From Gammaproteobacteria bacterium (GTDB lineage Bacteria; Pseudomonadota; Gammaproteobacteria; Pseudomonadales; Azotimanducaceae), in assembly GCA_012960535.1 (NCBI GenBank), contig DUBB01000002.1:62001-126000 (forward strand): 64,000 bases of DNA, written 5' to 3'. Both the position numbers and the translations under genes were made by a program. The notes below the pieces were generated by a model. It saw only the letters and a program-made list of their open reading frames with translations, did no database searches and had not been told where the DNA came from. This document shows, piece by piece, positions 33,176 through 50,186 of the stretch (positions are counted from its first letter, which is position 1; each line of letters opens with the position of its first letter).

Positions 33176-36100
33176 ATGGCACAGAAGCAAGGATCAATTG
33201 ATCAACTTTATTTGAATGCAGAAACCCTTTCGGAGGATTTTTCGCTGTTTCCAAGAAAAGAGCCTGCTTCGCTTATTAAAGGCTTGTTATCTGAACAGGA
33301 TATCAATATTCAGTTGCAGAAACTCCAGACCATGGAGGTGGATGAATATATAGCAGCCACGGTATTACCTAGCGAGGAGCCAACGCGACCGGGCGCACGG
33401 CAGATCATCGAAGCTTTGGATTTGCCGATTAGTAATGAAGAAAGTATGGGGCCTTATTTTGCCTGTGAGATAGTGTTTTCATTTGATGGAAGAACACGAA
33501 TCATTGGTATAATTGCTCAGGATCGGGCCTATTCCAGCGGCGTCTGGGGGCCGGAGCACCACCAGGCGGCAGCAGATAGAGCGATTGGTTTTGCTATCAG
33601 GTCTTTGCCCATTGTGACTTTAATGGATACGCCAGGTGCGGATCCCTACGAACAGGCTAATGCTGCTAATCAGGCGCATTCAATTTCTCGTTTGATTGCA
33701 GAATTGTGTAATGTTGACGTTCCTACCGTAGGGATAATTCTTGGTCAGGGGTATTCAGGTGGCGCGATTCCCCTTGCCGCCAGCAATTTACTGCTTAGTT
33801 TGCGCACGGGGGTGTTCAATACTATTCATCCGCGCAGCCTGGCAAATCTGGTCAGGCGCTATAATCTGTCCTGGCAGGAATGTGCCAAATTTGTTGGTGT
33901 TTCGTCATTTGAATTATACCGCCAGGGAAATATAGATGGCATTGTTGATTATGATCCCGGTGAAACCGAAAACATTCATAATCTTAGAGAAGTCATTGTT
34001 GCAGCTATTTCTTCCATCGAAGAGGGTGCCCGACAGTTCGTCGGAGAACATCCTGAAATACTGGATCACTATCACAGAAATATTAATCGCTATCTTAACG
34101 TTTCTGAGTATCTTGCCGCCGTCAACGCCAGTTCCAGTTTGAAACTGCGGACGTCACCTACCGAATATCCAAATGTTTTTGGGGTGGCCTATCGGTATCT
34201 GCGCTATCTGGGATTGCGCAGTCGGATTAAAGCAACGACGACGACCCAGTATGGTCGCCTGGCTAGCGTAGAAATCCCGGCTGGAGAGTTGGCCCAGAGA
34301 GTGCACAGAGAAAGGCGAGGCGCCTTTTTAAACTGGCTCCAGGATCCGGATAAGGTGCTATATGACGATAATCTAAATAAGGTATGGAAGAGCTTCGTTG
34401 AAAAGAGAGCACGCCTGGGTGACGACCAGGGTACTTTGAGAAAACTGATTTTTGGAGAACCGGAAAAAAACTTTGAAAAGGCGCGCCAAGAGCTTTGCAT
34501 GGTCGCTGGTTTGCATCTGTTTAACCGTTGGAAGGGTAATGCTAAAGACAACCTGCTAGCGCTGATAGAGCATCTGAACGAATATGAGTCCAGTATTTAT
34601 CTGTTGACGACGCAGGAAATTAAAGACGTAAAACTATTACTTGTGTCGATGTCAGAGTGTGATGAGCCTTTTGTGCGCCACTTGAAATCCCTGTTTAGTT
34701 TTGATGGTCGAAAATTGTTTGATCCGGCTTTCATCGAACAGAAAAAGCCTGATTTTCTCAGCGTTCGACTCGCGTCTGAGCTTAATTTGATTCTCGAAGA
34801 AGCGATTCTATATGATGAACATCGCCTCGCTGGAATCAGCTTTTCACCGCAGACTCAGGCTTTGCTCAAGAACCAGGATTCCGCCAAGTCGATGATCCCT
34901 TTAAATCGTCGGTTGCTGGAAGATTCACTCTGGACACATATCCATAGAACCTCGGGCGAAGGCCGTGAAAATTCGGATCAGGATTTAACGATCCTTGACG
35001 TTCTGTTGGATAAGGATGTCAATGTTCATTTTCTTCAGGAATGCCGTAATCTGGTGGTTTTTTCAGCAACCTATGATGTCCTGCTGAGCGAGTTGGTTGC
35101 CATAGCGCAGGAGGCTCATGATTCACGTCATCTATCCGGAGAGTTGATAGAAAAACTACTGACGCAGGCGGTTTCGCAGGTTGTCCAGATGCCGCTGTTT
35201 GGTGATATTGAGGCAGAACGAGTCAACAATGAATTTGCGATCTGGATTGAACAGCTTGGCCATTACTATGGCGGCAGCACATTTCTCAAAGCAGTGGAAG
35301 AATGGATGAGGGTTGTTCATAAGGACAAATCCGATACGCTTTTCGTGGTTATAAGCCATGTTTTTGAGAAGGTCCTGCCTGATTTCCACAATGCCCGGCG
35401 CCATAGTAGGCCCTTTAACGGTAAGCTTGAACCGGCTCGAATTGGCAGGCGAAAAGACTTCTGGAATCGCCTGACCATTGCCTATCGGGATCTACTGTTT
35501 AATGAGCTGCTGACGCGGGAGAAGCGCTCCAAGAGAACCCGTTTTGAGACACTGCTTGAGCGCTATGTTTCTAATTTTGAGGAAACCAGCGCCCATCTGA
35601 TGTCTGCCAACCCTGTGTCATTTCCAACGTTCAGACCGTCAATCGAAGCTGCCCTGAAGAATGGTATTCGGCCTCATGGTCTGATCACAGGTATTGGCGA
35701 TTTTAATACCACGGAATCGAGCTATAAGGTTGGACTGGTAATGTCTAATATCGATTTTCAGGCAGGCAGTATCGATAATTCGGATTGTGTTCGATTTTGT
35801 AAGCTGCTGGTTGAATGTGCATCGCATCGCCTGCCGGTAGTCTGCTTCATTTCATCCGGAGGCATGCAGACCAAAGAAGGCGCGGCAGCTTTGTTTACCA
35901 TGGCTGTGATTAATGATCGGATTACCCGATTCGTCAGAGACAATGATCTGCCGATCATTATATTCGGTTATGGTGATTGTACTGGAGGTGCTCAGGCTAG
36001 TTTTGTGACCCATCCTTTAGCCCAGACTTATTATTTTTCTGGTTGCAGTATGCCCTTTGCCGGGCAGGCGGTAGTAGAGAGAAATCTTCCGTTTACCTGC

Positions 36101-38095
36101 CTGATGAGTAATTACCTGTCTATGACAGCCGGTGCCATGCAAGGCCTGGTTAAACACCCTTTCGCGACCGAGCTGGAACAGGAATTACGCAAGGTGGATC
36201 CGGCAATACCGGTTCCTGCTGAAACTATCGAAGAAGTTGTGGATCGAATTATGTCTGGCGTGCTAACTGCTGCTGAACCTTCGGTAGATTCTGATGAGCT
36301 TTCTGACCTGGAACTGATAAGACCGGTCGAGAAGGTGCTGATTCATGCAAGGGGTTGCACAGCAGTTAAACTGGTAAGTAAAGCGCTCGAACTGGGCTAC
36401 CACACTGTATTGGTTCAATCGGACCCCGATATGGATTCAGTGGTGGCAGACATGGTAACTGCTGAGGGTGTTGAAGGAACGCTGGTCTGTATTGGCGGTA
36501 ATACTTCCGATGAAAGCTATCTTAATGCGCTTAGCATATTAAAAATTGCTGAAAATGAAGGCGTCGATGCTTTGCACCCCGGGATCGGGTTTCTGTCTGA
36601 ATCGCCTAATTTTGCAGGCCTGGTCAGGCAGAAAGGGATCAATTTCATCGGCCCGAGAGTGTCCAGCATGGAGACCATGGGTAACAAGTCCAATGCAATC
36701 AATACAACGCTGAGTATTAACGTGCCGGTGGTGCCGGGAAGCCATGGCATCGTTGAATCGTCTGAACTTGCTGCAGAAATTGCAGAACAGGTAGGTTATC
36801 CAATTCTACTGAAAGCGGTTCATGGTGGGGGTGGCAAAGGTATCGTAAAGGTCGAACGCCCGGAGAATCTGCACCAGCTCTTTCACCAGGTAACAACGGA
36901 AGCCAAAAATGCTTTTGGTAATGGCGATATTTATATTGAAAAATGCGTGACCTCGCTCCGCCATATTGAGGCACAGATCCTGCGGGATACCCATGGTAAT
37001 ACCTGTGTTATTGGTATCAGAGACTGTAGTGTGCAACGAAATAACCAAAAGCTAATGGAAGAATCGGGCTCAACATTGTTATCTGAAACCCTTCGTAGCG
37101 AGGTGCTGGAAAGCGCCGCCAGGATTGCAGATGCAGTGGACTATATAGGAGCCGGTACAGTCGAGTTTATCTATGATGTGCCCAGTGATGCTATTTACTT
37201 TATGGAGATGAACACTCGATTACAGGTAGAACATCCGGTAACAGAAGCGGTTACCGGGGTTGATATTGTCAAGCAGCAGTTTGCCATTGCTTCAGGCGCA
37301 TCGCTGGAGGCTATCGAATATGAAGAGTCGGGTTACGCGCTGGAGGTGAGGATTAATGCGGAAAAAGCCGCTGTAGGAGCAGATGGCTCGGTGACTTTCA
37401 TTCCCACTCCCGGCTTGATGACCGTGTGTGAGCTCCCTGAGCAGGAAGATATTGAACTTATCTCTATGGCCGGAGAGGGTAAAACCGTATCCCCCTTTTA
37501 TGACAGTTTAATTGTACAGATTATCGCCCATGGGGCTGATCGCGACGATACCGTGGCGAAAATGCTAGCTTATCTCGACAGGATTAAGATCAATGGCATT
37601 AGCACCAATATCAGTCTTATAAAGCGAGTACTTAAAGACGAGGTATTTCTATCCGGGGACTATGACACGACATTCTTGGCTAACTTTCTGGAGCGAACCG
37701 ATGTGCCTTCGCTCATCGAGGATATTGAAAGAGTCTCGGGGTCCTCCGCAGATGTCATCGATCTTGATATGTTACGAATTGAAAACAGCCAGGAACTCAA
37801 GGTCCTTTCACCCTCCACCGGTGTTTTCTTCAGAACGCCATCTCCCTCAGAGCCTGAGTATGTCAGTGTAGGCGACCAGGTTACCGTGGAGGATACTTTG
37901 TGTGTTCTGGAAGCCATGAAAATGTTTACTTCCTGTAGCTTGAATAGTTTCTCAAGTAGTCAGGGTGAGCTTTACCCAAGTTTGACTCAATACAGGGTGA
38001 ATAGAATTAATGTCAGCAATGGCCAGCAGGTAAATGAAGGAGATCTGCTGTTCGTGATCCAGCCAGTTGAAGCTGAGTCAGTCGCCAGTTTGTAG
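33176..38095 (+). CDS. Four-domain fused biotin-dependent acyl-CoA carboxylase
   Basis: A 1639-residue protein with every acetyl-CoA-carboxylase-type activity in one chain. Residues about 60-290 resemble the AccA carboxyltransferase half (DTPGA at 151-155, GQGYSGGA at 190-197). About 330-830 is a helical linker. About 840-1040 resembles the AccD half (SSGGMQTKEG from 893, GDCTGGAQ from 933), with no zinc-finger cysteines. Biotin carboxylase runs from about 1053 (GGGGKG 1217-1222, EMNTR 1344-1348, RDCSVQRNNQK). The carrier domain has biotin Lys1582 in EAMKM. The order alpha-beta-BC-BCCP is reversed relative to eukaryotic ACC. The substrate (acetyl-, propionyl- or long acyl-CoA) is not determinable. 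Confidence 0.85.
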   Translation: MAQKQGSIDQLYLNAETLSEDFSLFPRKEPASLIKGLLSEQDINIQLQKLQTMEVDEYIAATVLPSEEPTRPGARQIIEALDLPISNEESMGPYFACEIVFSFDGRTRIIGIIAQDRAYSSGVWGPEHHQAAADRAIGFAIRSLPIVTLMDTPGADPYEQANAANQAHSISRLIAELCNVDVPTVGIILGQGYSGGAIPLAASNLLLSLRTGVFNTIHPRSLANLVRRYNLSWQECAKFVGVSSFELYRQGNIDGIVDYDPGETENIHNLREVIVAAISSIEEGARQFVGEHPEILDHYHRNINRYLNVSEYLAAVNASSSLKLRTSPTEYPNVFGVAYRYLRYLGLRSRIKATTTTQYGRLASVEIPAGELAQRVHRERRGAFLNWLQDPDKVLYDDNLNKVWKSFVEKRARLGDDQGTLRKLIFGEPEKNFEKARQELCMVAGLHLFNRWKGNAKDNLLALIEHLNEYESSIYLLTTQEIKDVKLLLVSMSECDEPFVRHLKSLFSFDGRKLFDPAFIEQKKPDFLSVRLASELNLILEEAILYDEHRLAGISFSPQTQALLKNQDSAKSMIPLNRRLLEDSLWTHIHRTSGEGRENSDQDLTILDVLLDKDVNVHFLQECRNLVVFSATYDVLLSELVAIAQEAHDSRHLSGELIEKLLTQAVSQVVQMPLFGDIEAERVNNEFAIWIEQLGHYYGGSTFLKAVEEWMRVVHKDKSDTLFVVISHVFEKVLPDFHNARRHSRPFNGKLEPARIGRRKDFWNRLTIAYRDLLFNELLTREKRSKRTRFETLLERYVSNFEETSAHLMSANPVSFPTFRPSIEAALKNGIRPHGLITGIGDFNTTESSYKVGLVMSNIDFQAGSIDNSDCVRFCKLLVECASHRLPVVCFISSGGMQTKEGAAALFTMAVINDRITRFVRDNDLPIIIFGYGDCTGGAQASFVTHPLAQTYYFSGCSMPFAGQAVVERNLPFTCLMSNYLSMTAGAMQGLVKHPFATELEQELRKVDPAIPVPAETIEEVVDRIMSGVLTAAEPSVDSDELSDLELIRPVEKVLIHARGCTAVKLVSKALELGYHTVLVQSDPDMDSVVADMVTAEGVEGTLVCIGGNTSDESYLNALSILKIAENEGVDALHPGIGFLSESPNFAGLVRQKGINFIGPRVSSMETMGNKSNAINTTLSINVPVVPGSHGIVESSELAAEIAEQVGYPILLKAVHGGGGKGIVKVERPENLHQLFHQVTTEAKNAFGNGDIYIEKCVTSLRHIEAQILRDTHGNTCVIGIRDCSVQRNNQKLMEESGSTLLSETLRSEVLESAARIADAVDYIGAGTVEFIYDVPSDAIYFMEMNTRLQVEHPVTEAVTGVDIVKQQFAIASGASLEAIEYEESGYALEVRINAEKAAVGADGSVTFIPTPGLMTVCELPEQEDIELISMAGEGKTVSPFYDSLIVQIIAHGADRDDTVAKMLAYLDRIKINGISTNISLIKRVLKDEVFLSGDYDTTFLANFLERTDVPSLIEDIERVSGSSADVIDLDMLRIENSQELKVLSPSTGVFFRTPSPSEPEYVSVGDQVTVEDTLCVLEAMKMFTSCSLNSFSSSQGELYPSLTQYRVNRINVSNGQQVNEGDLLFVIQPVEAESVASL

Positions 38096-38223
38096 CCGCA
38101 GAAATGGGTAAGCCCTGGGTTGCTTAAACTGAGCGTTTGCTAAACCGAATCAGACCCTGCTGCTGGTTGCACATCGCTGGGGCGCGATAGTCGTTGCGAT
38201 AGGCACTCAAAGAGGCCGAGCTT

Positions 38224-39078
38224 GTGGTTGAAAACCTTGAAACTTTGCTGGCGTTGTCACGTGCTGGCACGATGATAGAAGCCAGTACAGAGCTGCGTAT
38301 ATCCCAGTCGGCGGTCAGTAAACGGATAGCGGCTTTGGAAAAATACTATGATCGCAAACTGATTCAAAAAAAAGGCAGGCGGGTGGAATTGACCCGGCAC
38401 GGCCAGAAGCTGGTGGACAAGATATCGCCCGTGCTCTCTGAGTTGAGAGATCTTTTTTTAGAGGATATCTCAGCTTCACGGGGCGAGCTTTTGATTGGTG
38501 TCTCTGATGCCATTTTATCGTCCTGGGGGGCGAGGGCCTTTTACGACGTCAAATTGTCAATGCCTGATGTCCAGTTCATTTTTCATGCGCATAGAACATC
38601 GGTCGTGCTTGACAGAATTCGTTCCGGGGAGTTCATGTTAGGGATATGTACGGGGCTGGATTCTCATGACACTGATCTGCAATCTGAGATACTGACTTAT
38701 GAAGCAATGGTGATTATCCCATCTGCTCTGGAAAGTATTCCCTGGCCATCGAAGAAGGCATTGCCAGTAATAAGTATAGAGGATCATTCGGGCGCTTGGC
38801 GGTCTTTTGGTGACGATGTCGCGCGCCTGAATATCAGGCGGGAGGTTGCCCTGGAATCTTTCTTTTCAGTCGCCCAGATGGCCATCGCTGGTTTTGGCCA
38901 TGCCCTGGTGCCAATTGGGGTTGCCCAGACCCTGGGTGTTGCAGATGCGTGCCTGATCAATCTGGGAGACCAGGGCCTGAACCGACCTGTCAGGTTTGTT
39001 GCCAGAAAATCCACCTATTCATTACCTGTGGTGGCAAATTTTTATAAAGCTTTAAGTGATTATCTTAAGGCTCAGTGA
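38224..39078 (+). CDS. LysR family transcriptional regulator
   Basis: A 284-residue LysR regulator. The N-terminal winged helix-turn-helix is visible in LETLLALSRAGTMIEASTELRISQSAVSKRIAALEKYY, and the periplasmic-binding-like effector domain follows from about residue 85. The GTG start at 38224 is preceded by AGAGG. It follows the fused carboxylase gene by 128 bp in the same direction, so it could regulate that gene, although LysR genes are more often divergent from their targets. Downstream it is convergent with pilU, with a 9-bp gap. No operator could be identified with confidence. Confidence 0.88.
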   Translation: MVENLETLLALSRAGTMIEASTELRISQSAVSKRIAALEKYYDRKLIQKKGRRVELTRHGQKLVDKISPVLSELRDLFLEDISASRGELLIGVSDAILSSWGARAFYDVKLSMPDVQFIFHAHRTSVVLDRIRSGEFMLGICTGLDSHDTDLQSEILTYEAMVIIPSALESIPWPSKKALPVISIEDHSGAWRSFGDDVARLNIRREVALESFFSVAQMAIAGFGHALVPIGVAQTLGVADACLINLGDQGLNRPVRFVARKSTYSLPVVANFYKALSDYLKAQ

Positions 39079-39087
39079 CCTTGATGC

Positions 39088-40320
39088 TCATTGGTTTTCG
39101 TCAATATCAACCAGAGATAAGTCATCCAGCCCAGGTGTGGTAGTCTCTGCGATAGAAGGTGCTGGTTCGGCAGTGACTTCCTGCGAAGCGGGCTGGGTGT
39201 CTTCCGCATTGTCGCTGGTTTTTTCAGCTTTCTCTTCAGGTTTCGCCTGGGGATTTTCATCGAGGGTGATTTTTAATCGAAGATTATTTCTGGAATCGGC
39301 ATTCTTCAGGGCTTCTTCCAGGTTGATCTTGCCCGCTTTGTAGAGTTTGTAGAGCGCCATGTCAAAAGTTTGCATACCTTGTTCTTCTGATTTTTCCATC
39401 AGTTCCTTGAGTTCGCTGACTTTGCCTTTGGCTATGAGGTCTGCGGCTCTGGGTGTGCCGATAAGAATTTCAATCGCTGCGGCTCGCTTTCCATCCACGG
39501 TGGGTATCAATCGTTGTGAAATGATTGCCCGCATGTTCAGAGAAAGATCCAGAAGCAGTTGCGCGTGTCGTTCTTTCGGAAAGAAGTTAATGATTCTGTC
39601 CATGGCCTGATTGGCACTATTGGCATGCAATGTCGAAACGCACAGGTGGCCCGTCTCAGCAAAGGCCAATGCATGTTCCATGGTTTCCCTATGCCGTACC
39701 TCGCCTATAAGAATGACATCTGGAGCCTGCCTTAGAGTGTTGGCCAGGGCATCTTCAAAGGAGTCGGTATCCGAGCCCACTTCTCGCTGATTTACGATAC
39801 AACCCTTGTGATTGTGGGTAAATTCTACAGGGTCTTCAATGGTGATAATGTGACCCTGGGTATTTTCATTCCGGTAGTCGATAAGGGCGGCCAGAGAAGT
39901 TGATTTACCTGAACCGGTGCCACCCACGAATAAAACCAAGCCTCGCTTTTGCATAATCAGTTGTGCCAGCACAGGCGGTAAGCCAAGGTCCTTGTAGTTC
40001 GGCAGGTCCGTTCCCAGGCGACGGATCACCATGGACACCTGATTACGTTGTTTGAATATGTTGATGCGGTATCGGCCCAGCCCAGACCGGGATATGGCAA
40101 GGTTCATCTCCGGCGTGTGGCTGAATTGCTCTATTTGATCTGCATTCATAATGGTATTGGCCAGATCTTCAATTTCTCCCGGCAGCATCGGTATTTCTGA
40201 AAGTTTTTTCATCGTGCCAAAAAATTTTGCACTGGGCGGGGCTCCGGTTGAATAATAGAGGTCGGAGCCTTCTTCTTCGACGAGCATCTTAAGGCAATCT
40301 TCAAAGCTGATCTGCGACAT
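39088..40320 (-). CDS. pilU: Type IV pilus retraction ATPase PilU
   Basis: A 410-residue PilT/PilU ATPase. Walker A is GGTGSGKSTSLAAL, the Asp box is HIITIEDPVEF, Walker B is PDVILIGEVRHRETM and the His box is HLCVSTLHANSANQAMDRI. The extended C-terminal tail (Pro/Glu/Ala-rich, residues about 355-410) and the absence of pilT next door make PilU more likely than PilT. It powers twitching together with PilT at the inner membrane. The gene lies 59 bp downstream of the GntR-PurM gene on the same strand and convergent with the LysR gene. Confidence 0.88.
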   Translation of the reverse strand: MSQISFEDCLKMLVEEEGSDLYYSTGAPPSAKFFGTMKKLSEIPMLPGEIEDLANTIMNADQIEQFSHTPEMNLAISRSGLGRYRINIFKQRNQVSMVIRRLGTDLPNYKDLGLPPVLAQLIMQKRGLVLFVGGTGSGKSTSLAALIDYRNENTQGHIITIEDPVEFTHNHKGCIVNQREVGSDTDSFEDALANTLRQAPDVILIGEVRHRETMEHALAFAETGHLCVSTLHANSANQAMDRIINFFPKERHAQLLLDLSLNMRAIISQRLIPTVDGKRAAAIEILIGTPRAADLIAKGKVSELKELMEKSEEQGMQTFDMALYKLYKAGKINLEEALKNADSRNNLRLKITLDENPQAKPEEKAEKTSDNAEDTQPASQEVTAEPAPSIAETTTPGLDDLSLVDIDENQ

Positions 40321-40379
40321 AATTTTATCCTCTTGACGGCAGGCGTACCCGGTCGCCTGGCTAGGCCTACCGGATGTAT

Positions 40380-41819
40380 TTAGGGATATTGAATAGTCTT
40401 GCCCAGATGGTCAACTAAACTTAGATGGTTTTCCCTGGCAGCTTCGGTATGACCAATTTGCTGAGCGTTGATACCAAAGGCAGTTGCCACATCTATTACT
40501 TCCTGAACCCTTCGGTGCGGTACATACAGTTCCATGCGATGGCCCATGTTGAATACTTTATACATCTCTTTCATGGTAGTACCAGAGGCTGTCTGGATAG
40601 CATTGAAAACCGCTGGTACGGACATGAGATTATTCTTAACAAAGTGGATGCCCTTGCCAAAGCGTAGACATTTAGTCTGAGCGCCGCCCGAACAGTGCAC
40701 AATGGCGTTAATTTCACGCTTCATCAGATTGAGCAGCTCCAGAATTACTGGCGCGTAGCTGCGGGTGGGGCTCAGCAGCGCCTGCCCTACAGTCTGTTCG
40801 GAACCGGATAAAGCATGATCGAGCTTATACGGGCCACAGTAAGTGAGGTTTTTTGGCAGGCTTGAGTCGTATGATTCGGGGTAGGTCTCAGCGTAGTAAT
40901 GACTCAACATGTCGTGTCTGGCGCTGGTTAAACCATTACTGCCAATGCCACTGTTTTCAGATTGCTCATAGGATGAGCGTCCCGAGGATGCCAGGCCGAC
41001 AATCGCTAGATCCGGTATAATTCGGTTCTCGATGATATCTGATTTACGGACAATACTGACAGCACAGGAATCCACCACCACGGTACCTGTCAGATCGCCT
41101 ACATCGGCAGTTTCGCCACCGCCTGGATAAATCTGGACGCCCTGATCACGAAGTTGCTGCATGAACTTTTCGCCGCCCTCTATAAGCGCCTTGATAACTT
41201 CGCCTGGGCAATTTGATGCATGCCGATTGATCGTGTTGGACAGGAGAATTCGCCCAGTCGCACCAATACAGAGAAGGTCATCAAGGTTCATGACAATGCT
41301 ATCCTGTGCAATTCCTTCAAAGACGCTGGCATCGCCGCTTTCCTTATATTCAAGATAGGCGATGACTGATTTGGTGCCGCTGCCGTCAGCATGGATAATA
41401 TTGCATTTAGCTGGATCACCACTGAGATAATCCTCAGTAATTTTGCAGAATGCGCCAGGGAAAAGACCAGGATCAAGCTTGTCGACCACCGAGTGCACCT
41501 CAGTTTTTTCTGCACTCACGCCTCTGGCCTGGTAGCGGTTGGATGCGGGTGAACTTTCCTGGGTTTCTAAATGATTTGGGGTCATGGTTTTGCTTACCTT
41601 GTATCCGGATCTATCTTTGGCTTCGATCAGTCCGCTGGATTCCAGTGATTTCAGGGCTTTTACGATAGTGTTACTGGCTAAGCCAGCACTGGCAGCCAGT
41701 TTCCTGATGCTGGGCAGGGCTTCTCCGGGTTTAAGTGCGCCGGTGTTGATAGCAAAATGGATCTGGTCAGCCACCTGCTGGTAGATTGGACTACTCGATT
41801 CATTGTCAATTGTTATCAT
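40380..41819 (-). CDS. GntR DNA-binding domain fused to PurM-type AIR synthase
   Basis: A single 479-residue protein. Residues 1-78 form a YtrA/GntR-type winged helix (PIYQQVADQIHFAI, GEALPSIRKLAASAGL, TIVKALKSLESSGLI). After a short linker, residues 94-479 match a complete phosphoribosylformylglycinamidine cyclo-ligase of the longer, Bacteroidetes-like type: RYQARGVSAEK, HADGSGTKS (Asp145, Lys150), GGGETADVGD (233-242), SPTRSYAPV, HCSGGAQTK and FNMGHRMELYVP. I read this as an AIR synthase that doubles as a DNA-binding regulator, or one adapted to sensing. It is divergent from hisH-hisF across the palindrome at 41834-41853. Normal PurM has no DNA-binding domain. One frame spans the whole fusion without a break. 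Confidence 0.9.
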   Translation of the reverse strand: MITIDNESSSPIYQQVADQIHFAINTGALKPGEALPSIRKLAASAGLASNTIVKALKSLESSGLIEAKDRSGYKVSKTMTPNHLETQESSPASNRYQARGVSAEKTEVHSVVDKLDPGLFPGAFCKITEDYLSGDPAKCNIIHADGSGTKSVIAYLEYKESGDASVFEGIAQDSIVMNLDDLLCIGATGRILLSNTINRHASNCPGEVIKALIEGGEKFMQQLRDQGVQIYPGGGETADVGDLTGTVVVDSCAVSIVRKSDIIENRIIPDLAIVGLASSGRSSYEQSENSGIGSNGLTSARHDMLSHYYAETYPESYDSSLPKNLTYCGPYKLDHALSGSEQTVGQALLSPTRSYAPVILELLNLMKREINAIVHCSGGAQTKCLRFGKGIHFVKNNLMSVPAVFNAIQTASGTTMKEMYKVFNMGHRMELYVPHRRVQEVIDVATAFGINAQQIGHTEAARENHLSLVDHLGKTIQYP

Positions 41820-41833
41820 AATAACGCTCTATT

Positions 41834-41853
41834 TGTATCATAGGTATGATACA
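41834..41853. promoter_or_regulatory. Palindromic operator TGTATCAT-AGGT-ATGATACA
   Basis: A perfect 8+4+8 inverted repeat in the 84-bp gap between the GntR-PurM fusion and hisH, only 15 bp from the fusion start. The arms contain TATGAT on both strands, at 41845-41850 and, inverted, 41837-41842, which could be -10 elements for each direction. This is the layout expected of a GntR-family autoregulatory site controlling both transcripts. Binding by the fusion protein is inference. Confidence 0.7.
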
Positions 41854-41903
41854 GATTTATAAAGATGAATCAAACTGCCGATTGAGCTAAAACATCCTTT
41901 ATA

Positions 41904-42566
41904 ATGCACGCCTTTAAGAGAAATGATGCCTTGAAAACGTCCTCAGCCACAATAGTTGATTATGATGCAGGTAATATCCGTAGTGTACAGCGTGCCTGTG
42001 CTGCGGTTGGTATCGACGCCAGAGTATCATCAAGCCCAGAGGCGCTATTAACCGCCGACAGATTAATATTCCCCGGTGTGGGCACTGCCGAATCTGCAAT
42101 GCAGATATTAAGGCAACGTGGGCTTGATGAGGCGCTGCTGCAGTTCTTTGATACAGGTAAACCCTTGCTTGGTATCTGTCTTGGTCTGCAAGTGGTGCTG
42201 GACCGGACAGAAGAAGGACAGGAGACTTGTCTTGGCATTGTTCAGGGTGACTGTCTCAAGTTTCAGTTTGCCGATCCCCAGTTTAAAGTGCCGCAGATTG
42301 GCTGGAATCAGGTTGAGTTGAAGAACGCCCATCCGATGCTGCGCAATATCAGTACTGGAGACGAGTTCTATTTTGTGCATTCGTACTATGCTCGACCCAC
42401 CAATCAAGAAAATGTTCTTGCTGAGACGACTTTTGGCGATATTGCCTTTGCCAGTATTATCGGTAAGCAGAACCTGTTTGCTACCCAGTTCCACCTGGAG
42501 AAGAGTGGTCGCCTGGGTTTGGCACTTCTGTCTTCTTTCGCCAGTTGGGATGGTGCAGCATGTTGA
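41904..42566 (+). CDS. hisH: Imidazole glycerol phosphate synthase, glutamine amidotransferase subunit HisH
   Basis: A class I glutamine amidotransferase of up to 220 residues. It has TIVDYDAGNIRSVQ at the start, the oxyanion FPGVGTAESAM, the nucleophile Cys92 in LLGICLGLQ and His197/Glu199 in ATQFHLEKSG (usually FHPEKS). HisH supplies ammonia to HisF. ATG 41904 is part of a possible TATAAT box (41900-41905); TTG at 41931, 9 bases after AAGAGA, would give 211 residues and may be the true start. It overlaps hisF by 7 bp. HisA and the rest of the his operon are absent. Confidence 0.88.
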   Translation: MHAFKRNDALKTSSATIVDYDAGNIRSVQRACAAVGIDARVSSSPEALLTADRLIFPGVGTAESAMQILRQRGLDEALLQFFDTGKPLLGICLGLQVVLDRTEEGQETCLGIVQGDCLKFQFADPQFKVPQIGWNQVELKNAHPMLRNISTGDEFYFVHSYYARPTNQENVLAETTFGDIAFASIIGKQNLFATQFHLEKSGRLGLALLSSFASWDGAAC

Positions 42567-43339
42567 CTAAACGAGTGGTGGCTTGTCTTGATGTCCGTGA
42601 CGGGAATCTAGCGAAGAGTATCCGCTTTGTCGATACACAGAATATTGGTGATCCGGTGAGTAAAGCCAAAGAATATTATGATGATGGGCTTGACGAGTTG
42701 GTTTTTTACGACATTACCGCGTCGAGTGATCATCGAAGTATCATGCTGGATGTTGTTGAGGCGGTTGCAGGTCAGATATTTATTCCTTTTTCAGTCGGTG
42801 GCGGCGTACGCAATGTTGACGATGCAAGCCGTCTGCTCTGGGCAGGCGCGGAGAAGGTGAATGTAAATTCGGCTGCAGTGGTTAGACCGGAGCTGATTTC
42901 AGAATGTGCAAAGGCAATTGGAGTCCAAAATACGGTTCTGTCAATGGATGTTAAACGGGTCACCGTGAACAGCACCTGCCCGAGTGGTTTTGAGGTGGTA
43001 ATAAACGGCGGACGCACAGCCATGGGGCTGGACGCAATCCAATGGGCCAAGCAGGGCGCTATGTTGGGCGCGGGCGAATTGGTCGTTAATTCCATTGATG
43101 CCGATGGTACCAGGCAAGGCTACGATATAGATTTAACCCGGCAGATTGCTGAGGCTGTGCCGGTGCCTATTGTTGCCTCGGGTGGGGCAGGCCAGCCTGA
43201 GCATCTTGTTGAGGTATTGACAGAGGGTAAGGCTGATGCGGCGCTGGTGGCTTCGATGGTCCATTATGGAGATTACACGGTGAGTGGTTTAAAAGCCTAT
43301 TTACACCAGCAGGGAGTGAAAGTCCGGCTGCGATATTAA
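42560..43339 (+). CDS. hisF: Imidazole glycerol phosphate synthase cyclase subunit HisF
   Basis: A 259-residue (beta/alpha)8 barrel that turns PRFAR plus ammonia into IGP and AICAR. From ATG 42560 the catalytic Asp11 (ACLDVRDG) and Asp130 (LSMDVKR) fall at exactly the family positions, and Lys19 is kept. The usual VVKG around Lys19 reads LAKS, however. ELVFYDITAS, VGGGVRN, SIDADGTRQGYD and VASGGAG are all typical. The ATG overlaps the hisH stop by 7 bp; an in-frame TTG at 42545 is less likely. The pair forms a HisHF complex. Confidence 0.92.
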   Translation: MLTKRVVACLDVRDGNLAKSIRFVDTQNIGDPVSKAKEYYDDGLDELVFYDITASSDHRSIMLDVVEAVAGQIFIPFSVGGGVRNVDDASRLLWAGAEKVNVNSAAVVRPELISECAKAIGVQNTVLSMDVKRVTVNSTCPSGFEVVINGGRTAMGLDAIQWAKQGAMLGAGELVVNSIDADGTRQGYDIDLTRQIAEAVPVPIVASGGAGQPEHLVEVLTEGKADAALVASMVHYGDYTVSGLKAYLHQQGVKVRLRY

Positions 43340-43355
43340 TTAGGAGGAAAGCAAC

Positions 43356-43553
43356 TTGAATAGCAAAACCGAGGATCTGGAAATCAGAATTGCCTTTCAG
43401 GAAGATCTGCTCACCAAGCTTGACCAGGCGGTCGGTGAGCAGCAACAACAGTTGTTGAAATTACAAGCTCAGATTGGTCTGATAGTCGAACATATTAAGT
43501 CACTGGATAGTGGTGATGCCAGGTCTGACAATGAACCACCTCCCCACTATTAG
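43356..43553 (+). CDS. slyX: SlyX family protein
   Basis: A 65-residue coiled-coil protein. IRIAFQEDLLTKLDQAV followed by QQQQLLKLQAQIGLI is a heptad-rich helix, and the C-terminus PPPHY is the family signature. SlyX is widespread in gammaproteobacteria and its function is not established. It starts with TTG at 43356, 7 bases after a perfect AGGAGG, 16 bp after the hisF stop. The gene may be read from the hisHF promoter. Confidence 0.85.
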   Translation: MNSKTEDLEIRIAFQEDLLTKLDQAVGEQQQQLLKLQAQIGLIVEHIKSLDSGDARSDNEPPPHY

Positions 43554-43624
43554 GTTAGATAAACTGATGCGGGGCAATTCCTGGGATTGTACGGTGTTGC
43601 TGATTATAAAAAAGGATCAATTTC

Positions 43625-44596
43625 ATGAAGGCGATAACAGTAGGTGAAGATAGTAGTTTGGATTGGAGCAACTTTCCTGACCCTGAATTAAAGCAGGGGG
43701 AAGTTCTCATAGAGGTCTCTGCTTCGGCTATCAATCGTGCTGATTTGATGCAGCGACGTGGCCTGTATCCTCCGCCCGCTGGCGCATCTCCCATCCTTGG
43801 GTTGGAATGTTCAGGGATTGTTACACAGGTTTCAGAAACAGTTGATCGCTTTAAGGAAGGGGACCCTGTCTGTGCCTTGTTAGCTGGTGGCGGATACGCG
43901 CAGAAAGTTGCGGTTGATCAGGGTAGCGTCCTACCTGTGCCTGCTGGGCTAACCCTGCTTGAGGCAGCTTCACTCCCGGAAGTCTATGCAACAGCCTGGT
44001 TGAATCTGTTTATCGAGGCGGGTCTCAGGCCTGGAGAAAAAGTGATTTTGCATGCCGGCGCCAGCGGCGTTGGTACCGCCGCGATTCAGCTGTGCAAGGC
44101 TTTTGGATCGCCGAGTTTTGTCACTGCAGGTAGTGAGGAAAAACTTGATTTCTGTCGGAGTCTTGGCGCGACTGATGGATTTAATCGTCATGACGGATCG
44201 TTTCTACAAGCAGCCAAGGCATTTTCCGGAGCGGTTGGGGCTGATGTTGTTCTTGACCCGGTAGGGGGAGCCTATCTTGAAGATAATCTCAATGTCTTGG
44301 GTTTGTACGGGCGGCTGGTGCTGATTGGCCTTATGGGGGGCAGTAACAGGGAAATCAACCTCGGTCAATTAATGGTGAAGCGGTTGCGAGTCATTGGTTC
44401 AACGCTACGGGCAAGAAGTCTGATGGAAAAAGCTGCAATCATAAAAGATCTACAGGAACAGGTCTGGCCTAAAATCGCAGAAGGTGAGATAAGGCCCGTT
44501 ATTGATAAGGTCTTCCCCATGCAAGCCGCGGCTGAGGCCCAGGATTGGGTGGCTACCGACCAAACTATCGGTAAAGTTGTACTGACGAATAGTTGA
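43625..44596 (+). CDS. NAD(P)H-quinone oxidoreductase (PIG3/QOR-like)
   Basis: A 323-residue zinc-independent medium-chain reductase. ASAINRADLMQRRGLYPPPAG is the quinone oxidoreductase/TP53I3-type signature; the nucleotide loop reads HAGASGVGTAAIQL and the YATAWLNLF segment is also conserved. It reduces quinones or enones with NADPH. ATG at 43625 is about 70 bp after slyX in the same direction. It ends opposite the cspA-like gene, with a small hairpin between their stops. Confidence 0.9.
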   Translation: MKAITVGEDSSLDWSNFPDPELKQGEVLIEVSASAINRADLMQRRGLYPPPAGASPILGLECSGIVTQVSETVDRFKEGDPVCALLAGGGYAQKVAVDQGSVLPVPAGLTLLEAASLPEVYATAWLNLFIEAGLRPGEKVILHAGASGVGTAAIQLCKAFGSPSFVTAGSEEKLDFCRSLGATDGFNRHDGSFLQAAKAFSGAVGADVVLDPVGGAYLEDNLNVLGLYGRLVLIGLMGGSNREINLGQLMVKRLRVIGSTLRARSLMEKAAIIKDLQEQVWPKIAEGEIRPVIDKVFPMQAAAEAQDWVATDQTIGKVVLTNS

Positions 44597-44650
44597 ACCC
44601 ACACGCTAGCCTTACCAGCGATGGGTACCCCTAAATTTTTGAGAATTGAG

Positions 44651-44670
44651 CCCGGTGCGATAGCACCTGG
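44651..44670. terminator. Candidate hairpin with GATA loop
   Basis: CCCGGTGC-GATA-GCACCTGG forms an 8-bp stem with one mismatch between the convergent quinone oxidoreductase and cold-shock genes. Read on the minus strand the core is GGTGC-TATC-GCACC, similar in loop and closing pair to the hairpin at 12560-12587. No strong T run follows, so termination efficiency is uncertain. Confidence 0.4.
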
Positions 44671-44676
44671 AGGGGG

Positions 44677-44889
44677 TTAATCCACCTCGGCTACATCCTC
44701 TGCTTGAAAGCCTTTGTCCGTTTCAGAAATCACGAACTCGACTTTAGCGCCTTGTTTAAGAGTGCGAAAACCTTCGCCTCTGATTGAGCGAAAATGGACA
44801 AAAACATCCTCTCCAGATTCTCGCTCAATAAAGCCAAAACCTTTTGAATCGTTGAACCACTTTACCGTCCCCATTTGTCTATCAGACAT
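44677..44889 (-). CDS. Cold-shock domain protein
   Basis: A 70-residue cold-shock protein with both RNA-binding motifs: KGFGFI and VFVHF, in the order [20 protein letters not shown] then [10 protein letters not shown]. These small OB-fold proteins bind single-stranded RNA and DNA as chaperones. The frame is open to 44946, but ATG at 44889 with an AGAGG site and the family start [12 protein letters not shown] is clearly correct. It is transcribed in the same direction as valS but downstream of it by about 130 bp, so it probably has its own promoter. Confidence 0.95.
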
Positions 44890-45017
44890 GCCAGTACCTC
44901 TTATTATTGCTCTAGCTTTAGTTAAAACTAGCTTGCCACAGGTCATTAAGACATATGATGGAGGACATGTACAGGCGATTTTCCCAGGGGTTGCTGCTAT
45001 TTAATTGGGGCTAGCGG

Positions 45018-47780
45018 TCACAGATCATTGATTTTGTTTCGTTGCAGGGTCAGTTCATTTAGAGCCTGTTCGAAATCAGCTAGTTTCAATTTTTCTTTCT
45101 CGACAACATCTGCAGGGGCTTTATTGGTGAAATTCTGATTCGCCAGTTTGCCTGAACTTCTTTTAATTTCGTCTGCCAGTCGATCCAGTTTTTTGGCCAG
45201 TCTCTGCAATTCTGCATTTTTGTCGATCAGATTTTCCAACGGCACCAGCAATTGCATTTCACCGATTAACTGGGTATTTGCGATAGGAAGTGTGTCTTCC
45301 GAATTGAGCCAGGTGAGGGATTCGGGTCTGGCAATTGCAGTCAGCAGTTCTGTGTAGGAATCCAGGCGTCGTCGGTCTTCAGCGGAGCCTTTATAAAAAA
45401 TCAGAGGGATCGGTCGGGCAGGTGAAATGTCCATCTCACCACGGGTATTGCGAACGGCGCCAATAACCTGTTTCAGCCAGTCTATATCATCGGTTACCTG
45501 TCTGCTGGGCGGCGTATCCTCCTTGGGTCCGGCGACTGGGTAGGGGGCAAGCATGATGGTTTGATGCTGTCTCATTTGAGCTGGAATTTTCTGCCATATT
45601 CCTTCGGTGATAAACGGCATGAAGGGGTGAGTGAGCCTCAAAATCTGTTCCAACGTGGTCAGGAGTTGAACTCGGGTGCCGGTTTTTTGCTCAGCGGAAG
45701 TTCTGTCTGATAGCAGCGTTGCTTTACAGAGCTCTATATACCAATCGCAGAATTCATCCCAAATAAATTCATATATTGCTTTTGCCGCCAGATCAAATCG
45801 ATAGGTATCCATGGCCAGGTTAACTGCACGGCTGGTTTTGTCGAAAGTGATTTGGATCCACTGGTCAGCAATAGAATCATGCCTGGCGCCACTGAGGTCA
45901 TGGTCATCGGTGTTCATGAATACGAAATTCGCAGCATTCCACAGTTTGTTGCAGAAGTTTCGGTAGCCTTCGACTCTTTTCAGGTCAAAGCGCATGGACT
46001 GGGTGCGGGTTGCAATGGCGTAGAACGTGAAGCGAAGCGCATCTGTACCATAAGCATCGATTCCTTCTGGGAATTCTTTGCGGGTGGACTTCTCTATTTT
46101 CTCTCGCACTCTCTGCTGCAGAAGATTGTTGGTACGTTTTGAAACCAGTTGCTCAGCGGATATGCCATCGATGATATCCATGGGATCCAGTCCATTGCCT
46201 TTGGATTTGGACATTTTCTGTCCTTCCGAATCTACAACCAAGCCGTGGATATAGACTTTTTTGAAGGGAACTTCTTCCATGAATCTGAGCGACATCATGA
46301 TCATTCTTGAAACCCAGAACGAGATGATGTCATGACCTGTGACCATGATGTCGGTGGAATGGAAAGTGTCAAGGTCTTTGGTCTGATCAGGCCAGCCGAG
46401 GGTGGAAAAAGTCCAGAGAGCAGAGGAGAACCAGGTATCCAGCACATCTTCATCCTGGGATAATTCAACCTCCGGTGCCAATCCAGCGGATTCTCTGACT
46501 GCCTGTTCATCGGTACCGACAAAAATATTTCCGTCGGTGTCATACCAGGCGGGAATCCTATGCCCCCACCATTGCTGCCTTGAAATGCACCAGTCGCGAA
46601 TATCTCGCATCCAGGCAAAGTAGATGTTTTCTGCCTGCTTTGGAATAAATTCAATTTTCCCGGATTCAACAGCCTCAATTGCCGGCTTGGCAAGCGGTTC
46701 AATCTTTACGAACCATTGATCACTTAACAGTGGTTCAACGGGAACCCCAGATTTCTCTCCTCTGGGAACCATCATCTTGTGATCTTCGGTCTTTTCAAGC
46801 AGGTTGAGGTCCTGCATGCTTTCTATGATGGCTTTTCGGGCTTCATATCGATCCATCCCGGCATAGGGCTCGGGGGTATGATTATTCAAGGACGCATCGG
46901 TGTTCATGATATTGATCATTGGCAACTGATGCCGTTGACCCACTTCATAGTCGTTGAAATCATGAGCGGGTGTGATTTTCACACAGCCACTACCAAAATC
47001 CTGGTCAACGTAGTGATCAGCAATGATGGGGATAACACGATTGACCAATGGCAGCATGATATTCTTACCGATAAGATGCTGGTAGCGCTTATCGTCTGGA
47101 TGTACTGCCACAGCAGTATCGCCAAGCATGGTTTCTGGTCGTGTTGTGGCAACCACCAGATATTGGTCAGGTTCTTTTTCTAGCGGATATCTGAAATGCC
47201 AGAGGTGGCCGCTCTCTTCCTCAGCGATGACCTCCAGATCAGAAATGGATGTTTCCAGGATGGGGTCCCAGTTAACCAGTCGTTTGCCCCGGTAGATCAG
47301 GCCATCTCGATACAGGCGTATGAAAACCTCTAAAACTGCTCGGGACAAGCCTTCATCGAGAGTGAATCGTTCTGTTTCCCAGTTAAGAGAGGCACCCATG
47401 CGTCGCAGTTGAGTTGAGATAGTTCCTTCTGATTCTGATTTCCATTGCCAGGCTCTGTCGATGAAAGCGTCGCGTCCGATATCCATCGGTTTTAACTTTT
47501 CTCTTGCCAGTTGTTCGCTGACAATTAGCTGGGTAGAGATTCCTGCATGGTCTGTGCCCATCTGCCAGAGTGTTTTGTCCCCCAGCATACGTCGTCGTCT
47601 GATGATTGAATCGACCAGACTGTGTTGAAAAGCGTGCCCCATATGCAGTGTGCCAGTGACATTAGGCGGTGGTATTGCGATAGAAAAAGCGGTGCCGTCA
47701 CCTTGTGGAGCAAAGTAACCAGCCGCCTCCCAGCGTGCGTACCAGGTGCCTTCAACAGTTTTTGGATCGTACTTTTCCAT
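45018..47780 (-). CDS. valS: Valyl-tRNA synthetase
   Basis: A class I synthetase of about 920 residues. The HIGH signature appears as PPPNVTGTLHMGHAF and KMSKS as QKMSKSKGNGLDPMD. The CP1 editing domain includes TTRPETMLGDTAV, and a C-terminal coiled coil (NLIDKNAELQRLAKKLDRL) is present. It charges valine to its tRNA. I use ATG 47780, which aligns MEKYDP with family N-termini; ATG 47789 and TTG 47798 are in frame and no ribosome site is decisive. It lies in the conserved pepA-holC-small gene-valS order, with a 38-bp gap to the gene before. Confidence 0.96.
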   Translation of the reverse strand: MEKYDPKTVEGTWYARWEAAGYFAPQGDGTAFSIAIPPPNVTGTLHMGHAFQHSLVDSIIRRRRMLGDKTLWQMGTDHAGISTQLIVSEQLAREKLKPMDIGRDAFIDRAWQWKSESEGTISTQLRRMGASLNWETERFTLDEGLSRAVLEVFIRLYRDGLIYRGKRLVNWDPILETSISDLEVIAEEESGHLWHFRYPLEKEPDQYLVVATTRPETMLGDTAVAVHPDDKRYQHLIGKNIMLPLVNRVIPIIADHYVDQDFGSGCVKITPAHDFNDYEVGQRHQLPMINIMNTDASLNNHTPEPYAGMDRYEARKAIIESMQDLNLLEKTEDHKMMVPRGEKSGVPVEPLLSDQWFVKIEPLAKPAIEAVESGKIEFIPKQAENIYFAWMRDIRDWCISRQQWWGHRIPAWYDTDGNIFVGTDEQAVRESAGLAPEVELSQDEDVLDTWFSSALWTFSTLGWPDQTKDLDTFHSTDIMVTGHDIISFWVSRMIMMSLRFMEEVPFKKVYIHGLVVDSEGQKMSKSKGNGLDPMDIIDGISAEQLVSKRTNNLLQQRVREKIEKSTRKEFPEGIDAYGTDALRFTFYAIATRTQSMRFDLKRVEGYRNFCNKLWNAANFVFMNTDDHDLSGARHDSIADQWIQITFDKTSRAVNLAMDTYRFDLAAKAIYEFIWDEFCDWYIELCKATLLSDRTSAEQKTGTRVQLLTTLEQILRLTHPFMPFITEGIWQKIPAQMRQHQTIMLAPYPVAGPKEDTPPSRQVTDDIDWLKQVIGAVRNTRGEMDISPARPIPLIFYKGSAEDRRRLDSYTELLTAIARPESLTWLNSEDTLPIANTQLIGEMQLLVPLENLIDKNAELQRLAKKLDRLADEIKRSSGKLANQNFTNKAPADVVEKEKLKLADFEQALNELTLQRNKINDL

Positions 47781-47818
47781 GAGGGTCATAATTATCAAAT
47801 GTGCGAGTATACACGCGC

Positions 47819-48265
47819 TTAGTACTTATCGTCGTCTTTTGCAGAGAATTCTGATGTATCCGAGTCGGATAGAAGGGCTGACAAGTCCTCTAGTTGTCCT
47901 ATAAGGTCTTCATTTAGTTTACAGACGACAGATCTCGCGTATTGATCAACCAGCTGGTTGATCGTATTTTCTATAGCTTCTCCATCTTGCTGGTCGATTT
48001 GGATGGTGTTGTAGACATCCGAAAATAGATCCAGTGTATCCGGATCATAATCAGGGTCTTCAGAAGACATTTTGGGGATTGGCTGTTTCTGCGTCGCATT
48101 TTTAAGTTGCCTGCCCTTTAGCTTTCCCGTGGTCGCTGTTGTCTGGGTGCCACCACTATGCTGGACCAGTAAATCTACCACATCCTTAAGCAGAAGGATC
48201 TGTGAGGGTTGCTTCTTGCCTGTGTTGTTTATTAGGTTTTCATCGCGGTCTTCACTGTTGGTCAT
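47819..48265 (-). CDS. Uncharacterised protein between holC and valS
   Basis: A 148-residue acidic protein I do not recognise by sequence. It is polar, with a basic/threonine-rich central patch (GGTQTTATTGKLKGRQLK) and a low-complexity acidic C-terminus (SDSDTSEFSAKDDDKY); a helical region lies near residues 85-125. A small hypothetical gene occupies the same position between holC and valS in Pseudomonas genomes, so it may be a fast-evolving ortholog. It overlaps holC by 4 bp and reads through toward valS 38 bp away. There is no signal peptide or membrane segment. The function is unknown. Confidence 0.7.
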   Translation of the reverse strand: MTNSEDRDENLINNTGKKQPSQILLLKDVVDLLVQHSGGTQTTATTGKLKGRQLKNATQKQPIPKMSSEDPDYDPDTLDLFSDVYNTIQIDQQDGEAIENTINQLVDQYARSVVCKLNEDLIGQLEDLSALLSDSDTSEFSAKDDDKY

Positions 48266-48684
48266 TGGGCCGCCATCTTATGGTACTTCAAAGGATATCC
48301 ACGTTCCTGGTAAAAGCGAAAATTGGTTCTAGCCTGATCTCGACTGGACTCTGACCTGGGTACGATTTCTGCGACACGCTCGAATCGGCTGAAAAAGTCT
48401 GGAACCTGACTGGCCATGTTGACAAGTACATCCTGGTGCTCTTCGGGTTCTGGATGACAGCCAATTTTTATAGGCGCTTCGATCTTGTCTGTATAGCGGC
48501 AGTGTGGAATGAATCGTTCTGGACGAAAGGTCCAGAGTAAATCGTCCAGCGTGCTGGAGTCCTGTTCATTCTGTGTGTGGATATAAATCTGGTGACCTTT
48601 CCTGTATACCTTGTCGATAAGCCGGCAGGTAAAGAACATGGGGTCTTCGTCTGATTCAATTTGATAGAAATCAACCCGGGTCAA
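48262..48684 (-). CDS. holC: DNA polymerase III chi subunit
   Basis: A 140-residue HolC, with RVDFYQIESD at the N-terminus, MFFTCRLIDKVYRKGHQIYI and TLDDLLWTFRPERFIPH, the typical chi signature. Chi links the clamp loader (via psi) to SSB. The start is TTG at 48684, which overlaps the pepA stop (TTGA) and has an AGGAGG site 10 bases upstream within pepA; the frame is open to 48804 but the extra 40 residues are not chi-like. A candidate psi gene is at 24786-25358. The stop overlaps the small gene before valS by 4 bp. Confidence 0.9.
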   Translation of the reverse strand: MTRVDFYQIESDEDPMFFTCRLIDKVYRKGHQIYIHTQNEQDSSTLDDLLWTFRPERFIPHCRYTDKIEAPIKIGCHPEPEEHQDVLVNMASQVPDFFSRFERVAEIVPRSESSRDQARTNFRFYQERGYPLKYHKMAAQ

Positions 48685-50186
48685 GACTTTTTGCCCTCCT
48701 GGGCAAGAAGGTACTGTGTCAGAAGGCCGACTGGTCTGCCCGTTGAACCTTTCTTCATTCCGGCCCATTTGAACCCTGTTCCAGCGATATCCAGATGCGC
48801 CCAACGATATTTTTTGGCAAATCGAGCCAGGAAACAGGCTGCAGTTATGCTGCCAGCTTCGCGGCCACCAATGTTCTGCATGTCTGCAAAAGCGCTATTG
48901 ATCTGGCTTTGGTAGTCCTCCCAGATGGGTAGGCGCCAGGCTCGATCATGGCTCAAATTGCCGGCGTCAATAACTTCTTGCGCCAAGTCGTCATCGTTTG
49001 CAAATACGGCGGTCGCGTGACTGCCCAAGGCTATAACACAGGCGCCAGTCAAGGTGGCGATATCAATTACCGAAGCGGGATTGAATTTGTCAGCATAAGT
49101 GAGAGCATCACATAGAACCAGCCGTCCTTCAGCATCCGTATTCAGTATTTCGACGGTTTGGCCAGACATCGTCTTGACTATATCACCCGGTTTTGAGGCA
49201 TTTCCTGACGGCATATTTTCTGCTGCTGCCATGATACCAACTACGTTTATTTCCGGATTCAGCTCTGCAATGGCCTGCATGGTTCCAAAAACGCTGGCGG
49301 CGCCACACATATCGTAGATCATCTCCCACATACCGGATCCGGGTTTCAGACTAATGCCACCGGTATCGAAAGTGATGCCTTTGCCAATAATAACGTGAGG
49401 TTTTTGTCGGGGATTGCCGCCGCGATAGTGCATGGTGATCATTTTACCGGGTTCAACGCTCCCCTTACTAACGGAAAGGAAGGCACCCATACCCAGTTTT
49501 TCCATTTGTTTTTCATTTAGAACCTGGGTTTTCACAGACGGATAATCTTTCGCCAGTTGCCTGGCTGCATCGGCCAGGAAGGATGGCGTACATACATTAG
49601 AGGGGGCATTACCAAGATCTTTTGCAGCACGCTTGCCTATGCTGAGAGCAGTTCCCTGTTGCATGCCCTTTTTGCAGGCAGTCAGATGCTCTCTACTGGC
49701 GTACAAGTCGACCTGTGCAAGTTTGAGTTGGCGGTCAGCAGCAGGTTTGGTACCTTTCATGGTCAGATACTGGTAGGTTGCATCCTCAAACTGTTCAACG
49801 GTTTTCATTGCAACCCAGGCAAGATCTCGTCCTTCTACTTCAGTATCGGTCAAGCAGTACAAGACTTTCCTGGCATTTAAGCCTTTCAGCTGAGCAATTG
49901 CTGCCGTGGCGATCGCCAGATAGCTTTCAGGCTTCATGGGTTCTGTTTTACCCAGGCCAACCAGTAGAATTCGGGGTGCTCTGATTCCATCCAGGTCCTG
50001 TAAGAGCATCGTTTGGGCCTTTTTGCCTTTAAAATCCTGGCGCTTGATAACAGCCTGGATTCGACCCTGGGTCGCTGTGTTTACTGCCTCAGCCGCAGCA
50101 GATAGTGAACCATCCTGGTAGATTCCTACAATGAGAGCCTGAACTCTGCTTTTAGTTATCTGTGCGCTTGAAGTGGCGTACCGCAT
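48681..50186 (-). CDS. pepA: Leucyl aminopeptidase PepA
   Basis: A 501-residue M17 aminopeptidase. The metal-binding segments are GKGITFDTGGISLKPG and NTDAEGRLVLCDAL, with the catalytic Lys and Arg in those loops; the N-terminal macro-like domain is also present. PepA removes N-terminal residues from peptides and in E. coli also binds DNA. It is divergent from lptF by 82 bp, the same arrangement as in E. coli and Pseudomonas. Length is normal. Confidence 0.95.
   Translation of the reverse strand: MRYATSSAQITKSRVQALIVGIYQDGSLSAAAEAVNTATQGRIQAVIKRQDFKGKKAQTMLLQDLDGIRAPRILLVGLGKTEPMKPESYLAIATAAIAQLKGLNARKVLYCLTDTEVEGRDLAWVAMKTVEQFEDATYQYLTMKGTKPAADRQLKLAQVDLYASREHLTACKKGMQQGTALSIGKRAAKDLGNAPSNVCTPSFLADAARQLAKDYPSVKTQVLNEKQMEKLGMGAFLSVSKGSVEPGKMITMHYRGGNPRQKPHVIIGKGITFDTGGISLKPGSGMWEMIYDMCGAASVFGTMQAIAELNPEINVVGIMAAAENMPSGNASKPGDIVKTMSGQTVEILNTDAEGRLVLCDALTYADKFNPASVIDIATLTGACVIALGSHATAVFANDDDLAQEVIDAGNLSHDRAWRLPIWEDYQSQINSAFADMQNIGGREAGSITAACFLARFAKKYRWAHLDIAGTGFKWAGMKKGSTGRPVGLLTQYLLAQEGKKS

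Follow-up and report, generated by a model that had tools for sequence, protein, structure and literature searches.

The window considered here, a 64,000-nucleotide stretch of contig DUBB01000002.1 from a gammaproteobacterium of the family Azotimanducaceae, encodes on its minus strand (40380..41819) a protein in which a GntR-type winged helix is joined to PurM, the aminoimidazole ribonucleotide (AIR) synthase of de novo purine synthesis. This GntR-PurM fusion is the sole AIR synthase found in the genome, and we consider it highly likely that it dimerizes on a single operator at its own promoter and acts as an autoregulated, single-target trigger enzyme. Sequence comparison across its scattered relatives indicates that the fusion enzyme very probably governs how much of itself is made. 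Few enzymes are known to regulate their own genes, and such a system, if the reading is true, would be a self-contained unit of one gene and one site.

The fusion is real and conserved. In the list of open reading frames (ORFs) it is a single frame of 479 residues without a break, and a preliminary description, made from the letters of the window, had read it as a GntR repressor followed by a complete, Bacteroidetes-like PurM, a reading that the domain and structure searches bear out. Pfam places GntR (PF00392) at residues 13-75 (41595..41783, a span also seen in the alignment; E 4e-15, 55.6 bits against a cut-off of 27), AIRS at 138-254 and AIRS_C at 316-464, each above its gathering cut-off. 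The winged-helix residues R39, T51 and R70 occur in 30/30 aligned fusions and N50 in 29/30, so that the N-terminal part belongs to the GntR family by both score and conservation; these four residues we take to be DNA contacts. Behind a linker at approximately residues 76-93 (41541..41594, from model and alignment) lies the full-length PurM part, residues 94-479 (40383..41540), which is of the Bacteroidota type and has the AIR synthase motifs DGxGTK, GGETAD, GSNGLxSARH and NMGHR, which an alignment of 36 rows shows to be shared by proteins with and without the fusion. Structurally, the best matches in the PDB are Bacteroidota PurM proteins, 3mdo from Parabacteroides (query residues 93-473; 51-52% identity, template modelling (TM) score 0.97-0.98 by target length, Foldseek) and 3kiz from Cytophaga (92-461; 48% identity, TM 0.96-0.97 by target length). 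Both are of the same PurM type as the fusion and are without a GntR domain, since the match begins at query residues 92-93, near the N-terminus of those chains; E. coli PurM is distant (22-23% identity, Foldseek), and the best GntR matches in the PDB are 6sbs and 4ham. An AlphaFold2 model built from 36 aligned sequences has a mean predicted local distance difference test (pLDDT) score of 88.4, with residues 80-90, in the linker, as the only segment below 50. By sequence and model, then, enzyme and DNA-binding domain stand in one protein, as they do in trigger enzymes.

The window's family was sampled with 100 genomes. Of these, 32 carry a PurM of the Bacteroidota type, and the match covers the N-terminal part in 29 of them, including one (G088) whose GntR part has decayed; the other three (G022, G071 and G087, all of one genus) have this PurM without the N-terminal part. 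In a second collection of 66 loci, many of whose assemblies overlap with the family sample, the N-terminal part is present in 43 and absent from 21, and 2 are cut by contig ends. Its fused loci come from Gammaproteobacteria, five Myxococcota, one Acidobacteriota and one Planctomycetota record, the taxon names being those of the records, many of which are bins, and one "Klebsiella pneumoniae" label being doubtful. More broadly, the fusion occurs in 1/274 genomes sampled across the class and 3/244 across the order, with all hits in the window's family and none in other families of the class among these samples.

Metabolically, the fusion appears to stand in for the ordinary enzyme. AIRS matches were found at three places in the window's genome, namely ThiL, a SelD fusion and GntR-PurM itself. 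The first adjoins nusB and lumazine synthase, is cut by the contig end and was set aside as a second PurM, and the second was likewise rejected, the match belonging to a SelD-type protein. In this SelD-like protein (G000:C42; L106:5645-7870) the fusion partner is a pyridine-nucleotide oxidoreductase, an architecture described in NCBIfam (TIGR04369), here below its cut-off. PurL and PurN are present, and no other purM accompanies them, an absence that is not absolute as the genome is 93.6% complete. In a survey of 80 of the 100 family genomes, canonical PurM (TIGR00878) scored above the cut-off in 0/32 with the Bacteroidota-type enzyme and in 45/48 without it; three genomes (G020, G039 and G041) yielded neither type, and are incomplete bins or use another enzyme. 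Canonical PurM was also absent, above the cut-off, from 16 of 19 further fusion genomes. With 32/32 and 16/19 genomes lacking it, the ordinary enzyme has generally given way to the fusion-type PurM, whose position as sole copy found indirectly supports AIR synthase activity of the fusion, which would convert formylglycinamidine ribonucleotide (FGAM) and adenosine triphosphate (ATP) to AIR.

The predicted operator, CTGTATCATACCTATGATACAA on the minus strand (41833..41854), ends 13 nt before the start codon of the fusion and is a 22-bp palindrome of the form CTGTATcAT-N5-TgATACAG. Within it, the perfect palindrome noticed in the preliminary description is confirmed at 41834-41853, with 9-bp arms and a 2-nt centre; nowhere else in the 4.24-Mb genome does it find a match with fewer than 3 mismatches. 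A motif common to the fusion upstreams, CTGTATcATnnnnnTgATACAG, reaches a score of at least 13/18 in 52 of 53 distinct upstream regions (identical ones merged), whatever the neighbouring genes, and TG at positions 2-3 and TACA at positions 18-21 are invariant in the 52 sites. Upstream of unfused PurM genes, one of 24 regions (L109) reaches 13 and none scores higher; shuffled controls reach 13 in 14/2650 and 12/1200 trials. The operator is kept in gammaproteobacterial, Myxococcota, Acidobacteriota and Planctomycetota loci with unrelated flanking genes, and it is the unfused loci, the losses described below and the distant phyla that tie it to the GntR domain. When the 32 genomes with this PurM were searched for the pattern at ≤1 mismatch, a limit that weaker sites would escape, with the reversed pattern as control, the own-promoter site was found in 19 of them and the pattern at 10 further places, counted as 12 strand hits, where the reversed control gave 4. 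Of the 10, nine fall within ORFs and the last between two convergent ORFs. No second promoter site was found among them, and a wider purine regulon was rejected because none precedes a gene. At the mismatch limits searched, the fusion thus fits a single-target autoregulator, whose one operator stands before its own gene. One extra pattern place (L174) lies behind a gene that by eye resembles a purine nucleoside phosphorylase.

Across the sequences compared, operator and GntR domain are present and lost together. In the same-genus genomes G022, G071 and G087, where PF00392 finds no GntR domain, the operator is missing as well, and the sole fusion upstream without one (L036) belongs to G088, whose GntR part scores 15.1 bits with PF00392 against the cut-off of 27 and has K, T, V and E in place of R39, N50, T51 and R70. 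Such a state, with matching PurM domains, a decayed GntR part and no operator (L110:9029-10432), is a natural intermediate of domain loss. In the Planctomycetota record (L071, 5981-7390), the upstream palindrome CTGTACCCTccacAGGGTACAG is altered yet symmetrical, both arms having changed in step, and the wing of the protein reads SRQAY for DRSGY, a pairing that offers a lead for mapping protein-DNA contacts. Evolutionarily, a quick midpoint-rooted tree of 77 PurM parts, in which support is weak for several deep branches and one row (L088) is labelled unfused only since its contig begins inside the gene, unites the fused forms with Verrucomicrobiota PurM and sets both apart from Bacteroidota. 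G022, G071 and G087 fall inside a 36-row group whose other members are all fused (support 91) and, being nested there, most likely lost the GntR domain. The mixture of phyla suggests horizontal spread.

Mechanistically, the protein would bind the palindrome directly before its own start codon and, once bound, would shut off its own transcription. PurM is a dimer, and this dimer would set two winged helices in register on one palindrome. When FGAM and ATP (or AIR and adenosine diphosphate) fill the active site, the binding may weaken, in which case a build-up of substrate would loosen the hold on the operator and lead to more enzyme being made. Coupling of this kind is allowed by the linker, whose commonest length is only 6 residues (9/30 aligned fusions). 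The widest form of the proposal, in which AIR synthase is a metabolite-reading sensor that sets the capacity of the purine pathway, leaves its operator once its active site is filled by FGAM and ATP, spreads between phyla and replaces the purM of the host, we put forward tentatively and at somewhat less than an even chance. A simpler possibility, likewise not quite an even bet, is plain autorepression with a fixed set-point, in which the GntR domain holds the amount of enzyme without reading any metabolite and PurM merely dimerizes, a special case of the same explanation minus the ligand step. The searched genomes hold no second promoter site, and the linker, disordered in the model and 6-20 residues long, speaks against tight coupling; against the fixed set-point are the retention of the GntR domain across several phyla on an enzyme of central metabolism and the shortness of the commonest linker, neither of them decisive.

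Several observations weigh against the autoregulated, ligand-responsive trigger enzyme as a whole. An autorepressor blind to ligand would leave identical sequence traces, and the linker between V75 and R95 is variable in length across the 30 aligned fusions as well as disordered, which disfavours tight coupling. The weakest of the 52 sites (L030) scores only 13, a value that shuffles attain, and one of its halves is poor. The scoring consensus was taken from the same fusion upstreams, so that the score of the fusion group is partly built in and the controls are the shuffles, the unfused loci and the losses; moreover, the upstream rows are related by descent and are not independent. Three of the 19 further fusion genomes (G387, G388 and G391, bins that may be mixed) carry canonical PurM as well. 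Lastly, the fusion falls below the cut-off of the NCBIfam equivalog TIGR00878 (99.5 bits against 236). That model need not admit every PurM, because among 14 control genomes, all of which give an AIRS-type match, 13 score above its cut-off and one does not; the Bacteroidota-type PurM is a divergent branch.

The genes divergent from the fusion invite another interpretation. On the plus strand lie hisH (41904..42566) and hisF (42560..43339), ordinary enzymes by their scores above the NCBIfam cut-offs (TIGR01855 and TIGR00735, respectively) and the only HisH and HisF found in the genome, whose hisB-hisA genes are on another contig. As the preliminary description had stated, the pair is an orphan: by eye, the ORF list holds no further his gene at 34000-50000 of the window. 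Its 84-bp gap to the fusion, however, is probably too short, for hisH probably starts at TTG 41931 rather than at ATG 41904, leaving ~111 bp. The reason is a TATAAT at 41900..41905 (plus strand), the likely -10 box of a hisHF promoter, which recurs on the hisH strand in 21/23 family loci checked, usually with a GC-rich stretch behind it (often GCGCGCTC). GC-rich discriminators after a -10 box are linked with stringent control.

It had been proposed that the fusion senses a purine intermediate and controls hisHF, linking the release of aminoimidazole carboxamide ribonucleotide (AICAR) by HisF to AIR synthesis. The single operator does sit between fusion and hisH, and among the 43 loci with the N-terminus hisH adjoins the fusion in 25 and hisF in 24 (one contig, L047, ends before hisF). 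Nonetheless, the proposal now appears improbable and is not supported by the comparison. In the other 18 fused loci, tblastn found neither hisH nor hisF in 0.4-8 kb of upstream-side sequence, and all 18 carry the operator with a score of at least 14/18. Nor does separation from the other his genes depend on the fusion. Among 24 fusion-free relatives, hisF was found in 23, with hisH beside it in 23/23 and a qor-like gene at 20/23 of these loci, and hisA or hisB was present in none of the 23 (2.0-3.8 kb of sequence each); one hisA match (L159) was discarded as the hisF gene itself at 25% identity. Orphan hisHF is therefore a family trait independent of the fusion. Where GntR domain and operator have been lost within the genus, hisHF remains in place and keeps its TATAAT (three genomes, by eye). 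Moreover, the hisH -10 box follows the operator centre at 47-104 bp in 21/23 loci (~56 bp in the window), which puts the operator near the fusion start and at a variable distance from that box, a poor place for repression. We accordingly place hisH and hisF outside the regulatory unit, and the fusion protein may have a side effect on their transcription. Among 20 flanking proteins from 12 fused loci without hisHF, Pfam revealed no conserved purine-related partner; the proteins include a glutathione S-transferase, an S-adenosylmethionine methyltransferase, an M20 peptidase, an ATP-binding cassette (ABC) transporter, TsaD and others, five are without a Pfam match, and a carboxypeptidase-regulatory-like domain recurs beside the fusion in two close relatives only.

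It is more doubtful still that the PurM part is dead, or repurposed as an effector domain in a protein that is a regulator only. GntR factors with enzyme-like effector domains do exist, such as MocR with its aminotransferase-like sensory domain (PMC5320631), yet a dead PurM would leave the window's genome and the other 31 family genomes with no canonical PurM above the cut-off, in the window's case alongside PurL and PurN, and the motif residues are shared with the unfused Bacteroidota enzymes. A frameshift or assembly artefact joining two separate genes, which the preliminary description had raised together with absence from relatives as grounds for abandoning the fusion, is practically excluded by the recurrence of the same architecture, at 55-97% identity, across the many assemblies of both collections.

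Among known systems, the trigger enzymes PutA, BirA and NadR are likewise metabolic enzymes with a DNA-binding domain. The nearest analogue is PutA, whose only binding region, according to PMC8249747, is the spacer that separates its gene from the divergent putP; like PutA, the fusion has its one predicted site at its own promoter. Of the preliminary description, the fusion with its complete PurM, the operator-like palindrome and the enzyme-repressor logic of the PutA kind are supported. The fusion differs from all three in that its enzyme is the AIR synthase of de novo purine synthesis, its DNA-binding domain is of the GntR type, it is the sole copy of its enzyme found in the cell, and its ligand effect is putative. 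Bacteroidota and Verrucomicrobiota relatives that were found have no GntR domain and no clear operator, unlike the fusion. Within the GntR family, PMC4494728 describes YtrA-subfamily operators as long palindromes with GT and AC far from the centre, and YtrA regulators as having a short two-helix C-terminal part and standing mostly in operons with ABC transporters. The fusion resembles these in its winged helix and in the outlying GT and AC of its operator; its C-terminal partner is PurM instead of the short two-helix domain, so that the likeness to YtrA ends at the operator shape. With the MocR proteins (PdxR, GabR) it shares the joining of a GntR winged helix to a domain of enzyme fold, and PdxR is the best NCBIfam match of its N-terminus (69.6 bits against a cut-off of 320), but its enzyme fold is a PurM with seemingly intact motifs, and Pfam detects no aminotransferase-like C-terminal domain. 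The operator was also considered as a known MocR motif and rejected, neither half-site string occurring in the main text of PMC5320631.

In the open-licence literature, no description was found of a GntR-PurM fusion, of an AIR synthase with a DNA-binding domain or of an enzyme of de novo purine synthesis that regulates its own gene, and we provisionally regard the GntR-PurM autoregulator as undescribed as far as that literature was searched. Enzyme, sensor and operator would here make up a single portable unit, of which one genus offers natural losses, and this makes the direct readout of a housekeeping enzyme's occupancy as transcription testable with one protein and one 22-bp site.

Elsewhere in the window, the plus strand encodes at 33176-38095 a single chain of 1639 aa with carboxyltransferase, biotin carboxylase and biotin-carrier domains. 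A LysR gene (38224-39078) adjoins this biotin enzyme and, in those family loci in which it was detected, is kept at 71-97% identity.

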